Positions 46,184 through 53,146 of a stretch of DNA of 64,000 bases are shown piece by piece. The notes under the pieces were generated by a model. The model was not told the DNA's origin and ran no database searches. It saw only the letters and a list, made by a program, of their open reading frames with translations. The DNA is from Haloarcula pelagica (GTDB lineage: Archaea; Halobacteriota; Halobacteria; Halobacteriales; Haloarculaceae), in assembly GCF_030127105.1 (NCBI RefSeq), contig NZ_CP126161.1, positions 3,162,001-3,226,000 of the forward strand. The letters are read 5' to 3'. The position numbers were made by a program, and so were the translations under genes. Each line of letters starts with the position of its first letter. The stretch's first letter is position 1.

Positions 46184-47317
46184 TCAGCGCTCCGCGACCG
46201 GCGTCCACTCGCGGTCGGTCGCGCCGACGTACGCCGAGACCGGCCGGATCAGTCTGTTGTCGTCGAGTTGCTCCAGACAGTGGGCCATCCAGCCGCCCGC
46301 CCGGCCGACGGCGAACGTCGCCGTGAACAGGTCCCGGGGGATCCCGACGCCGTGGAGCAGCGCCGCGGTGTAGAACTCGACGTTGGTCGCCAGCCGGCGG
46401 TCCGGTTTGTGTTCGGCCAGCGCGTCGAGTGCGACCGACTCGAACTGCTCGACCGTCTCGTAGAAGCCGTCCTCGTCGGTCCCGGCGTAGAACCGTTCGG
46501 CCGCCGAGGAGAGGACCGCCGCCCGCGGATCGCGGACCCGGTAGACGCGGTGGCCAAACCCCATCAGCCGTTCCCCGGCGTCGAGTCGGTCGCGGACGAA
46601 CCCCTCGGGATCGCCGGACTCGTGGACCGACTGGAGCATATCCAACACCGGCCCCGGCGCGCCGCCGTGGAGCGGTCCTTTCAGTGTCCCGATCGCGGCC
46701 GTTCCCGCGGAGACCAGGTCCGACTCCGTGGAGACGACCGTCCGCGCGGTGAACGTCGAGGCGTTGAGCCCGTGGTCGATCACGGTCGCCAGATAGGTCT
46801 CCAGGCCCCGAACGGCGGCGTCGCTGGGCCGTTCGCCGGTCAGCATGTACAGGTAGTTCGCGGCGTGGGACAAGTCCGGGTCGGGCTCGATCGGGGCCTC
46901 GTCCTGGCGGTAGCGCCAGTATGCCGCGACGATCGTCGGGGCGACCGCGACGACGCGGGTGGCGGCCGTCCGCGGGTCCTCGGCGTCGATCCCGAGGCTG
47001 GCCGCGGCGACGCCCATCCGCAGTGCGTCCATCGCGGGGTCCCCGTCGGCCGCGGCCCGGCGGACGACGCCGTGGACCTCCTCGTCGAGCGTGCGGTGGG
47101 CCGCGAGTTCCGACCGGAACCGATCGAGTTCCCGGCCGGTCGGGAGGCGGTCCTCGAACAGGAGGTAGACGGCCTCCTCGAAGGAGGCGTTGCCCGCCAG
47201 CGTTTCGACGGGATAGCCCCCGACGAGGAGTTCGCCGGCCTCCCCGTCGACCCGGCTGAGGCGAGTCTCGGCGACGGTCACGCCCTCCAGCCCCGGGCGG
47301 ACGGTGTCGTCGGTCAC
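46184..47317 (-). CDS. Citrate synthase-like protein with Asp-to-Glu at the catalytic Asp
   Basis: 377 residues, GTG start. Citrate synthase fold: VAETRLSRVDGEAGELLVGGYPVE, SHAANYLYMLTGERP (151-164), DHGLNASTFTARTV with His182, GPLHGGAPG with His217, GFGHRVYRVRDPRA with His256, GRAGGW (Arg339) and LIRPVSAYVG (Arg358). The catalytic Asp of the canonical NVDFY is Glu314 here (NVEFY). It may be a citrate or methylcitrate synthase with altered chemistry, or no longer be one. It lies downstream of a paralogue on the same strand (238-bp gap). Length is normal. Confidence 0.85.
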   Translation of the reverse strand: MTDDTVRPGLEGVTVAETRLSRVDGEAGELLVGGYPVETLAGNASFEEAVYLLFEDRLPTGRELDRFRSELAAHRTLDEEVHGVVRRAAADGDPAMDALRMGVAAASLGIDAEDPRTAATRVVAVAPTIVAAYWRYRQDEAPIEPDPDLSHAANYLYMLTGERPSDAAVRGLETYLATVIDHGLNASTFTARTVVSTESDLVSAGTAAIGTLKGPLHGGAPGPVLDMLQSVHESGDPEGFVRDRLDAGERLMGFGHRVYRVRDPRAAVLSSAAERFYAGTDEDGFYETVEQFESVALDALAEHKPDRRLATNVEFYTAALLHGVGIPRDLFTATFAVGRAGGWMAHCLEQLDDNRLIRPVSAYVGATDREWTPVAER

Positions 47318-47447
47318 GCCATCACCCCCGTGGCTGGGTCGACCGAGTCGGTGGCCGGGAGGGGCTGTCGCGCGGGCGGGGCAGCTGCGGCCGATCGTGG
47401 TCCGAGCATCGACAGTGAGTAGCGCCGAGAGCGACGTAAGGGCTCGG

Positions 47448-47461
47448 AGAAGCGCGCTTCT
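47448..47461. promoter_or_regulatory. Perfect 14-bp palindrome between the two citrate-synthase-like genes
   Basis: AGAAGCGCGCTTCT, symmetric with no spacer and flanked by GAG/TCTC. It lies 131 bp upstream of the 47317 gene. It could be the operator of the winged helix fused to the neighbouring paralogue, but this is only a positional guess. Confidence 0.4.
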
Positions 47462-47554
47462 TCTCGGCCGGTGATAGGTCTGTGTCGACAGTCCGAGCCG
47501 CCCATCGAACGGACTCCGCCGGGCGTGACGGGGAAAGCGCGTTCTCCCGAGCGA

Positions 47555-48979
47555 TCACGGGTCCGCGGGGAAGGCATCGTCGGCGAGGACCGTCTCGACG
47601 AACCGCTCGCCGGCCGCGGTCAGCGCGTAGCCGGCGTCCCCGTCGGCGACGAACGCCCCGCGAAGCTGTCGGAGGTGGTAGTTGAACCGACCGTTGTCCT
47701 CGATCGACGTGCGTTCCCGGAGCGTCGAGTACGCGACCGGCCCGTCGGCGGCCGCCAGCGCGAACAGGACCTCCAGTCGGGCCGGTTCGGCGAGGGTCTG
47801 TAACGTCTCCGAGACGGGTTCGACGGCCGCTCGCTCGGTCACCCCGTCGGTCGGCTCTCGCTCCTCGACCGGCGTCCAGGTCCGCCCGGTCGGCCCGACG
47901 TACCGAGAGACGGGGCGAACGAGGACGTTGTCGGCTCGCTGTTCCAGACAGTGGGCCATCCAGCCGGCGACCCGGGCGACGGCGAAGGTCGGTGTGAACA
48001 GCGCCGGCGGGATGTCGACGGCGTACAACAGCGCCGCGGCGTAGAACTCGACGGTGGCGGCCGCGTGTCGCCTGGGGAAGCGATCGTCCAGAGCCGCCAC
48101 GCCCGCGGATTCGAGGTCCCTGACCGTCGCCCGGAACTCGCCGCCGACGGGGAGCCGCTCCATCGCCGCCGAGAGGACCGCCGCCCGCGGGTCCCGGACC
48201 TCGTACACCCGGTGGCCGAACCCGGGCAGGTCGTCGCCGTCTGCGAGTCGCTCGCGGACGGCCGCGCCGACATCGTCGGCCTCGTGGGCCGTCCGAAGCA
48301 GTTCGAAGACGCGCCGGAGGTTCCCGCCGTGGCGCGGCCCCTTCAGCGTCCCGACTGCGGCCGTCGCCGCCGACACGAGGTCCGACTCCGTGGAGACGAC
48401 CGTCCGCGCGGTGAACGTCGACGGATTGAGTCCGTGGTCGACGATCGTCGTCAGAAACGCGTCGAGAGCGCGTGTCTCGGCCGCCGTGGGCCGCTCGCCC
48501 GTCACCATGTACCGGTAGTTCGCGGCGTGGGACAGCGACGGGTCGGGATCGACGACGGACTCGCCCCGGCGGGCGCGCCAGTAGGTCCCCACGACCGTCG
48601 GGACGACGGCGATCACCCGCAGCGCGGTCGCCGACGGCCCCTCGTCGTCGGTCCCGAGCGTCGCCGCGGCGACGCCCATCCGCAGGGCGTCCATCGGGTC
48701 CACGCCGGCCGCTGCCGCCGTCTCTACCAGCGTCCGGACGGCGTCGTCGAGCCCGCGGGAATCGGTCAGTGCCGCCCGGACCGTCTCTCGCCGGTCGGCC
48801 GGCGGGAGGTCCCCGTCTAACAGCAGTGCGACGCTCTCCTCGTAGGTCGCGTTGGCGGCCAGTTCCGCGATCGGATAGCCGCGGACGACGAGTTCGCCGG
48901 CCTCGCCGTCCACGTCGCTCAGTTCCGTCTCCGCGACGGTGATCGACTCCAGCCCGGGATCGAAGACGGACGGTGTCAC
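47555..48979 (-). CDS. Citrate synthase-like protein fused to an ArsR-like winged helix
   Basis: 474 residues. Residues 1-370 align without gaps to the neighbouring paralogue over the first ~270 positions: His182 (DHGLNPSTFT), His217 (GPRHGGN), His256 (GFGHRVYEVRDPRA), and again Glu311 (TVEFY) for the catalytic Asp. Residues ~388-470 are a winged helix: VSETLQTLAEPARLEVLFAL, YSTLRERTSIEDNGRFNYHL, RQLRGAFVADGDAGYALTAAG. This is the pattern of ArsR-like regulators and an unusual fusion. I start at GTG 48979, which aligns with the paralogue; an in-frame GTG at 49021 adds 14 residues. Confidence 0.85.
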   Translation of the reverse strand: MTPSVFDPGLESITVAETELSDVDGEAGELVVRGYPIAELAANATYEESVALLLDGDLPPADRRETVRAALTDSRGLDDAVRTLVETAAAAGVDPMDALRMGVAAATLGTDDEGPSATALRVIAVVPTVVGTYWRARRGESVVDPDPSLSHAANYRYMVTGERPTAAETRALDAFLTTIVDHGLNPSTFTARTVVSTESDLVSAATAAVGTLKGPRHGGNLRRVFELLRTAHEADDVGAAVRERLADGDDLPGFGHRVYEVRDPRAAVLSAAMERLPVGGEFRATVRDLESAGVAALDDRFPRRHAAATVEFYAAALLYAVDIPPALFTPTFAVARVAGWMAHCLEQRADNVLVRPVSRYVGPTGRTWTPVEEREPTDGVTERAAVEPVSETLQTLAEPARLEVLFALAAADGPVAYSTLRERTSIEDNGRFNYHLRQLRGAFVADGDAGYALTAAGERFVETVLADDAFPADP

Positions 48980-51980: not shown

Positions 51981-52889
51981 CTACGGCAGTTCCCGGTCGC
52001 GGTCTTCCGCCGAGTGTGCCCGCACCCACAGCTCCCCGATGCGTGAGAGCCGTGTCCGGTAGGACTTCCCTCGGTCTTCCTGCTCGATGTACCCCTTCCC
52101 GCCCGGGCCGAGCCGGTCGACGTTGTAGATGACCTTCGAGCGGAAGGAATCGGTGTACTCCTCGCCAAGGTCGCGGGCGAGTTCCTGGGCGAGTTCCGAA
52201 ACCGACTCGAACTCGCCGTGTTCGCCCAGCGTAAAGAGGATGACTTCCTCGAAGGGCTTGACGTTCGAGAAGGAGGCGACGGGCAGTTCGACGATGTGGG
52301 AGCCGTCGATCTCCTTCGCGCCGATGGTCGTCCCGCGCTCGTCGAACTCGTCGAGCAGGTCGACCGCGGTCCGGAGTCGCTCGTCGACGCGGTCGTCGAC
52401 ACCCTCGCCGGCCTGGAGGTCTTTCAGGAGGTCGACCTGCCGGCGCAGTTCCTCGGCCAGTTCCGTCTCCAGGTACTTCTCGGGGACCGTGTAGTAGGTG
52501 TGGATGCGGTCCCGGTCGCCCTCGCGTTCGACCATGATCGAGTGGGCCGCCGTCGCGAAGGCAAAGGAGACGGTGCGGGGCATCGCCGAGACGTTGACCC
52601 ACACCTCGCTACCCGAGTCAAGTTCAGCGTTGATGAGTTCGAACGCCTGCTCGAAGGCGTCGTCGTAGTCGTAGACATCGGCGATGACGAACCGCTCGGT
52701 CTCGGCGCCCAGGAGGTTCTCGTAGTCTTTCTCCAACTTCCTCGCGAGGTTGCGCGAGTACTCGACGTTGGCCTCGCTCCCGACCGCGCCCTCCAGGAGG
52801 ATGACCCGGTCCACGTCGAGTTGCTCGCGCACGAGCGGCGCGATGAGCCGGTCGTAATCGAAGCCGACCGGGACGATGTGGGTGTGCAT
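51981..52889 (-). CDS. HFX_2341-family transcriptional regulator (CARF-like sensor plus winged helix)
   Basis: 302 residues. The N-terminal ~150 residues are a Rossmann-like sensor: HIVPVGFDYDRLIAPLV, VDRVILLEGAVGSEANVEY, EVWVNVSAMPRTVSFAF. These resemble CARF and HFX_2341 domains that bind nucleotides. The C-terminal part is a winged helix (PFEEVILFTLGEHGEFESVSEL, VIYNVDRLGPGGKGYIEQED). No CRISPR array or effector nuclease is near. A strong TATA (TTTATATC, minus strand 52913-52920) lies 27 bp before ATG 52889. Ends 170 bp upstream of valS on the same strand. Confidence 0.78.
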   Translation of the reverse strand: MHTHIVPVGFDYDRLIAPLVREQLDVDRVILLEGAVGSEANVEYSRNLARKLEKDYENLLGAETERFVIADVYDYDDAFEQAFELINAELDSGSEVWVNVSAMPRTVSFAFATAAHSIMVEREGDRDRIHTYYTVPEKYLETELAEELRRQVDLLKDLQAGEGVDDRVDERLRTAVDLLDEFDERGTTIGAKEIDGSHIVELPVASFSNVKPFEEVILFTLGEHGEFESVSELAQELARDLGEEYTDSFRSKVIYNVDRLGPGGKGYIEQEDRGKSYRTRLSRIGELWVRAHSAEDRDRELP

Positions 52890-52910
52890 ATCCGATACGT
52901 GGTGGCGGCG

Positions 52911-52920
52911 GCGATATAAA
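52911..52920 (-). promoter_or_regulatory. TATA box for leaderless HFX_2341-like regulator gene
   Basis: Minus-strand TTTATATCGC centred ~27 bp before ATG 52889; an unusually good haloarchaeal TATA. Confidence 0.65.
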
Positions 52921-53146
52921 GTGCCAGTCTCGGGACGGGTGTGCCGGGGGTCGGTTCCGCTCTGTCGCGCTGGATGCCGAGCCGGTCGCTGTGGCCCGGG
53001 AGCGCGAGCCGTCACCGTCGGGACGTGTCCGTAACTGGTTCAGATCTGTACGTAAATCCCCGCCAATCGTTGATAATCGGTAGCGAACACGCGAATTTTG
53101 TCAACCATGGGATACTGTTTTGACCCTGCCGCGTGAGTTCGTACAT

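Follow-up and report, generated by a model that had tools for sequence, protein, structure and literature searches.

The window analysed here is a stretch of 64,000 nucleotides of the Haloarcula pelagica genome (contig NZ_CP126161.1, positions 3,162,001 to 3,226,000). It contains a gene, here called FUS, that encodes a citrate synthase (CS)-like domain fused to a C-terminal winged helix, followed on the same strand by a gene for an intact synthase of a second type, CS2. The features are as follows, in window coordinates:

47555 to 48979, minus strand: fusion gene FUS (open reading frame and translation, Pfam, AlphaFold, 20 collinear relatives).
47858 to 48979, minus strand: CS-like, putative sensor domain of FUS (site tables of 20 FUS, 46 CS2 and 12 CitZ proteins).
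47582 to 47836, minus strand: DUF7347 winged helix of FUS, with DNGRFNYHLRQL in its recognition helix (Pfam PF24038, 80.5 bits; DSSP).
47530 to 47547, no strand: distal candidate operator O1, GGGGAAAGCGCGTTCTCC on the plus strand, which matches GGRGAA-N6-TTCYCC without mismatch just past the FUS stop codon.
47446 to 47463, no strand: proximal candidate operator O2, GGAGAAGCGCGCTTCTTC on the plus strand, 4-5 bp upstream of the CS2 TATA-like box.
47434 to 47441, minus strand: putative CS2 TATA-like box, CCCTTACG on the minus strand (conserved spacing after the palindrome, intergenic alignment).
46184 to 47317, minus strand: CS2, an intact second-type citrate/methylcitrate synthase and probable target of FUS (Pfam, 385 bits; tree; active site).

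Elsewhere in the window, near valS, a minus-strand gene at 51981-53015 was judged by eye to combine a CARF-like N-terminal part with a winged-helix-like C-terminal part.

The FUS protein is 474 amino acids long, with a GTG start at 48979 and a stop codon ending at 47555, which bears out the gene coordinates of the first-pass annotation and places the gene on the minus strand. An alternative, longer reading frame reaches 49021; the relatives keep the start V/M-TPSVFDP. The CS-like domain (residues 1-374) is joined by a linker to the DUF7347 winged helix at about residues 382-466. Pfam places Citrate_synt at residues 9-356 (E 7e-99), and the PF00285 score of 331.7 bits against a cut-off of 27 identifies a full-length citrate synthase domain. 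An AlphaFold model of the monomer, built from a 27-row alignment (mean pLDDT 82.5, pTM 0.73), retrieved citrate synthases, including 6aby and 2c6x, at the top of the Foldseek ranking. The proposed citrate synthase fold with histidines 182, 217 and 256 is thus confirmed by Pfam, AlphaFold, Foldseek and the site tables. Residues 355-384 of the model are of low confidence and include the C-terminal arm, the part of each chain that packs against the other subunit in solved CS dimers. FUS falls below the curated cut-off of the haloarchaeal CitZ equivalog NF041301 (327.6 versus 550 bits).

The C-terminal part had been described as an ArsR-like winged helix, a claim that was to stand or fall with a structural model. 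The winged helix was recovered, in the order H-H-H-E-E-H over residues 382-466, with DSSP assigning helices to 382-396, 399-409, 417-422, 429-439 and 455-466 and strands to 444-447 and 450-453. The ArsR assignment did not survive, as the score for the ArsR/SmtB metalloregulator model NF033788 was 16.2 bits against a curated cut-off of 55, and the domain belongs instead to DUF7347 (residues 391-464, E 1e-22; PF24038 gathering cut-off 27.6 bits).

CS2 consists of 377 amino acids, is encoded 237 bp downstream of FUS and has intact active-site residues, while the third synthase of the genome is a canonical CitZ encoded elsewhere. The leader of CS2 is about 85 bp longer in the window than in the nearest relative. 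It contains a short ATG reading frame (MLGPRSAAAAPP...; 47314-47412, minus strand), the stop codon of which overlaps the GTG start of CS2; this frame and the extra length perhaps reflect translational coupling or an insertion.

The pockets of FUS, CS2 and CitZ were compared in the site tables, using the numbering of pig citrate synthase. FUS contains the oxaloacetate ligands H182, H217, H256, R265, R336 and R355 and the acid E311, and the equivalents of pig H238, H274, H320, R329, R401, R421 and D375 are kept in 19-20 of the 20 fusions. The catalytic acid is Asp or Glu in every fusion, and Glu also occurs at this position in CS2. The positions that differ are presumably located on the acetyl-CoA side, to judge by solved CS structures. 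Immediately before the catalytic His217 (pig H274), an arginine, R216, replaces leucine in all 20 fusions; this leucine is present in 12/12 CitZ and 44/46 CS2 proteins, the other two CS2 proteins having Arg. Residue 257, which follows pig H320 and is Arg in all CS2 and CitZ proteins, is changed in 17/20 fusions, residue 309 (pig Asn373) is Thr in 14/20, and 16/20 lack Arg250 (fusion numbering). In the conserved residues of the acetyl-CoA side, FUS thus departs from the citrate synthases. Residue 324 (pig numbering) was dropped as a CoA marker since it also varies in CitZ. The retention of the oxaloacetate/citrate residues together with the changes on the acetyl-CoA side suggests a ligand-binding pseudoenzyme, the pocket of which would bind oxaloacetate or citrate and handle CoA poorly. 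The arginine beside the catalytic histidine could bind an additional carboxylate of a citrate-like ligand. The acyl-CoA-binding core of the first-pass annotation finds no support, as the oxaloacetate ligands are kept while the CoA-side positions diverge.

An alternative is that FUS is a true trigger enzyme, which would bind DNA while still active as a citrate or methylcitrate synthase and so couple catalysis to regulation. The three histidines, the acid and the arginine ligands are all retained, which makes residual activity of FUS possible, and the glutamate at the acid position is shared with CS2 and with the solved citrate synthase of B. subtilis. However, the invariant exchange of Leu for Arg before the catalytic histidine and the divergence of further CoA-side positions argue against this alternative, as does the same pocket pattern in the independent bacterial fusions described below. 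Furthermore, in Caulobacter, where the locus tags of citB and citC are consecutive, CitB was able to complement a gltA mutant of E. coli, whereas CitC failed to do so (PMC7083601). The failure of CitC would fit a sensor-type citrate synthase, should CitC have an HTH. We therefore consider an active trigger enzyme unlikely.

Alignment of the FUS-CS2 intergenic regions revealed an inverted repeat just before the CS2 TATA-like box. The motif GGAGAA-N6-TTCTCC was derived by eye from this alignment, chiefly from one sub-clade, and the remaining loci were scored against it (out of 12). Support for the palindrome comes from its persistence where the flanking DNA fails to align. It scored at least 11/12 upstream of CS2 in 20/20 loci with FUS versus 1/26 loci without it (Fisher 3.7e-12, a value that ignores shared ancestry and overstates the significance because FUS is monophyletic and the loci are not independent), and the rest of the 261 kb of loci contained only one site at this threshold. 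Two copies are present at most loci, as a rule one near the FUS stop codon and another about 50-61 bp before CS2, with the second copy usually 84-188 bp upstream of the one that abuts the TATA-like box. In the window, the proximal site is located 146 bp from the CS2 start, versus the usual distance of about 50-61 bp. In several relatives, the distance between the TATA-like box and the start codon points to leaderless transcripts. H. mediterranei, which lacks FUS, has a 10/12 version of the repeat.

The motif is also rare at the genome scale. Perfect matches to GGRGAA-N6-TTCYCC number 0-4 per genome, and one is located at CS2 in 17/18 genomes with FUS, versus 0/13 genomes without it; in eight genomes it is the only perfect match. 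The 4.46 Mb source genome has 25 sites at no more than one mismatch but only two perfect matches, of which O1 is one; the other is found on plasmid contig C3, in a transposase-rich region that offers no clear target. No site above 9/12 was found at the promoter of FUS itself, and the CS2 promoter rather than the FUS promoter appears to be the best candidate target. In one genome (G175), about 3.6 kb with two genes separates FUS from CS2, and the repeat remains beside CS2. An RNA hairpin or terminator was rejected as an explanation for the palindrome, given its position in G175 and since no T-run follows it.

It may be asked whether the palindrome is instead the site of another regulator, with FUS acting otherwise, for example as the regulatory subunit of mixed FUS/CS2 dimers. 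In favour of this, active sites in CS dimers are shared between subunits. The source genome encodes a stand-alone DUF7347 protein (L187, 1397-2084; G000:C1 about 1168396-1169083), the recognition helix of which, GRFNYHLRQL, is nearly identical to that of FUS, and a GAAGAA-N6-TTCTCC palindrome is found 11 bp past the stop codon of its gene. DUF7347 regulators may thus share this half-site, and other regulators might use the palindrome. The repeat is also retained in one genome without FUS, the MAG G136, where it occurs with a TATA-like box (AGAGAACAGTCGTTCTCCGAACGCTTA) about 187 bp before CS2 (L043); the fusion may have been lost recently from this genome or be located elsewhere in an incomplete MAG. 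Against this explanation stands the co-occurrence of repeat and FUS given above, and the bacterial analogues also have DNA-binding domains and an intergenic dyad. Moreover, a pure subunit would need no conserved winged helix. On these grounds, we judge this explanation to be slightly less probable still than an active trigger enzyme.

A search for the fusion architecture across haloarchaea, as had been proposed, identified 20 fusions from four families. Complete fusions were found in 8/146 genomes of the family to which the source genome belongs and in 8/125, 2/170 and 1/28 genomes of three other families; the 20th, in Halomontanus rarus, is plasmid-borne and labelled "citrate/2-methylcitrate synthase" by NCBI. 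No relatives were found among the viral contigs searched. In a tree of 95 CS proteins, inferred with a quick method and with many weak inner forks, the 20 fusions formed one clade (SH-aLRT 99) nested within the haloarchaeal CS2 proteins, while CitZ formed a separate clade and the CS2 ortholog of Rubrobacteraceae was the nearest bacterial branch. This topology indicates that FUS arose once, by duplication of the second-type synthase CS2. CS2 is the next gene on the same strand after the fusion in 20/20 loci, usually at a spacing of 155-304 bp (65 bp in one MAG with a frameshifted CS2). No conserved neighbours beyond CS2 were found across genera, as the outer genes change between them, so the neighbourhood gives no pathway hint. 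Close pairs of FUS genes have dN/dS values of mostly 0.05-0.44 (0.62 in one pair at very low dS), and purifying selection is mostly tighter in the winged helix. A frameshift or assembly error that joined two genes, the refutation foreseen by the first-pass annotation, or a decaying pseudogene is virtually inconceivable, as nothing was found in favour of it beyond the rarity of the fusions (19/469 genomes, four families) and it is already refuted by the relatives, with 20 collinear fusions across many assemblies, a DUF7347 match in 18/18 members tested and purifying selection on close pairs.

A genome of the same genus (G012) has a single synthase at the same valS locus (L042, 5075-6208); about 95 residues at its beginning resemble FUS and the remainder resembles CS2. 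It represents a natural FUS/CS2 hybrid from recombination of the tandem genes, in which the winged helix and the operator repeats were lost together.

In our judgement, FUS is probably a one-component regulator dedicated to CS2 and responsive to oxaloacetate or a citrate-like product, where we infer both DNA binding and the ligand. After duplication of CS2, one copy would have gained a haloarchaeal DUF7347 winged helix at its C-terminus. The CS domain, with its oxaloacetate/citrate pocket kept and its CoA side altered, would most likely bind the ligand without catalysis. Citrate synthases form dimers and close around their ligand, so the two winged helices attached to a FUS dimer could recognise the 18-bp inverted repeat GGRGAA-N6-TTCYCC, and ligand-driven closure would change the spacing between them. 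As the repeat abuts the CS2 TATA-like box, usually with a second copy upstream, FUS could in this way tune transcription of CS2 to oxaloacetate or a product-like tricarboxylate. A repeat that abuts the BRE/TATA region suits a repressor as well as an archaeal activator, and we lean slightly towards repression. The regulatory part of the metabolite-sensing trigger protein proposed in the first-pass annotation is thus supported by the fusion clade, by the conservation of the pocket and by the candidate operator at the CS2 promoter, whereas the sequence argues against enzymatic activity.

Proteins with an HTH and a CS domain are also present in bacteria. The pAt plasmid of Agrobacterium fabrum encodes a 425-residue "citrate synthase family protein" (WP_236762366.1) with an N-terminal MerR-type HTH, the gene for which is divergent from a gene for a CS2-like synthase. 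Azospirillum, Roseomonas, Burkholderia, Thioclava, Deinococcus and others encode similar proteins, in several cases next to other metabolic genes; the alphaproteobacterial sample consists of plasmid records. In the class Rubrobacteria, a MerR-CS protein was identified in 23/39 genomes, with an adjacent, divergent CS2 ortholog in 19/20 loci and a conserved dyad, ATTGAT-N6-ATCAAT, in the intergenic region. These proteins keep all of the oxaloacetate His and Arg ligands, have Lys or Arg beside the catalytic histidine in 19/19 cases and have Thr in place of Asn373 in 16/19. There is more variation among the other bacterial members, with Arg, Lys or His beside the catalytic histidine in 6/11. Five of the HTH-CS genes (L118, L119, L120, L121 and L124) adjoin genes for an MFS transporter/2-hydroxyacid dehydrogenase, a CoA-transferase or a pyruvate carboxyltransferase, hinting that some of the bacterial proteins may sense other 2-oxo or 2-hydroxy acids.

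The haloarchaeal and bacterial fusions form separate clades in the CS tree and are therefore apparently independent, which looks like convergence. The comparison tips the balance towards citrate synthase having been recruited at least twice as a transcription-factor sensor, in haloarchaea with DUF7347 and in bacteria with MerR, giving a recurrent class of regulators that would read oxaloacetate or a citrate-like product. Such a class would control how carbon enters the TCA or methylcitrate cycle. The haloarchaeal and Rubrobacteria fusions are both paired with CS2 and share the same Lys/Arg change and a dedicated dyad. A central enzyme fold has apparently come to regulate its own intact paralog, and the candidate operator is short and near-unique. 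With the parallel change of this pocket position in bacteria, the question of the ligand becomes concrete. To our knowledge, direct transcriptional sensing of oxaloacetate or citrate is poorly known in archaea. The literature searched for CS-HTH fusions, citrate synthase as a regulator and haloarchaeal methylcitrate contained no description of such a protein, nor a functional study of the bacterial MerR/HTH_17-CS proteins. As NCBI annotates one such fusion as a plain "citrate/2-methylcitrate synthase", flux models based on annotation would miscount synthases.

Among known proteins, the haloarchaeal CS2 family, which includes WP_004060952.1 on a 505-kb plasmid of Haloferax mediterranei, is the parent family of FUS and about 50-60% identical to its CS domain. 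Unlike FUS, these proteins lack the winged helix, have an intact CoA side and mostly lack the upstream operator. WP_004060952.1 is probably HFX_6170 "gltA", the two being matched by replicon only, and knockdown of the latter raised PHBV by about 40% (PMC8387396), consistent with real synthase flux through CS2. The nearest solved sequence to FUS, citrate synthase 1 of B. subtilis (PDB 2c6x), also has Glu at the catalytic acid position but no DNA-binding domain. GfcR of haloarchaea and PurR of bacteria are phosphoribosyltransferase-derived regulators, in which an enzyme fold is reused as a one-component sensor; the fold is unrelated to that of FUS and the ligands are others, so the parallel is one of principle only. 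The bacterial MerR/HTH_17-CS proteins are more similar, in that they combine an HTH with a CS domain in which the oxaloacetate ligands are largely kept, in that a CS2-like gene adjoins them in Rubrobacteria, Agrobacterium and Ensifer as CS2 adjoins FUS, and in that Lys or Arg beside the catalytic histidine is shared by FUS, all Rubrobacteria proteins and some other bacterial members. However, their HTH is N-terminal and MerR-type and their genes are divergent from CS2, while FUS has a C-terminal DUF7347 domain, is arranged in tandem with CS2 and belongs to a separate clade, and is thus not a member of the bacterial MerR-CS fusions.
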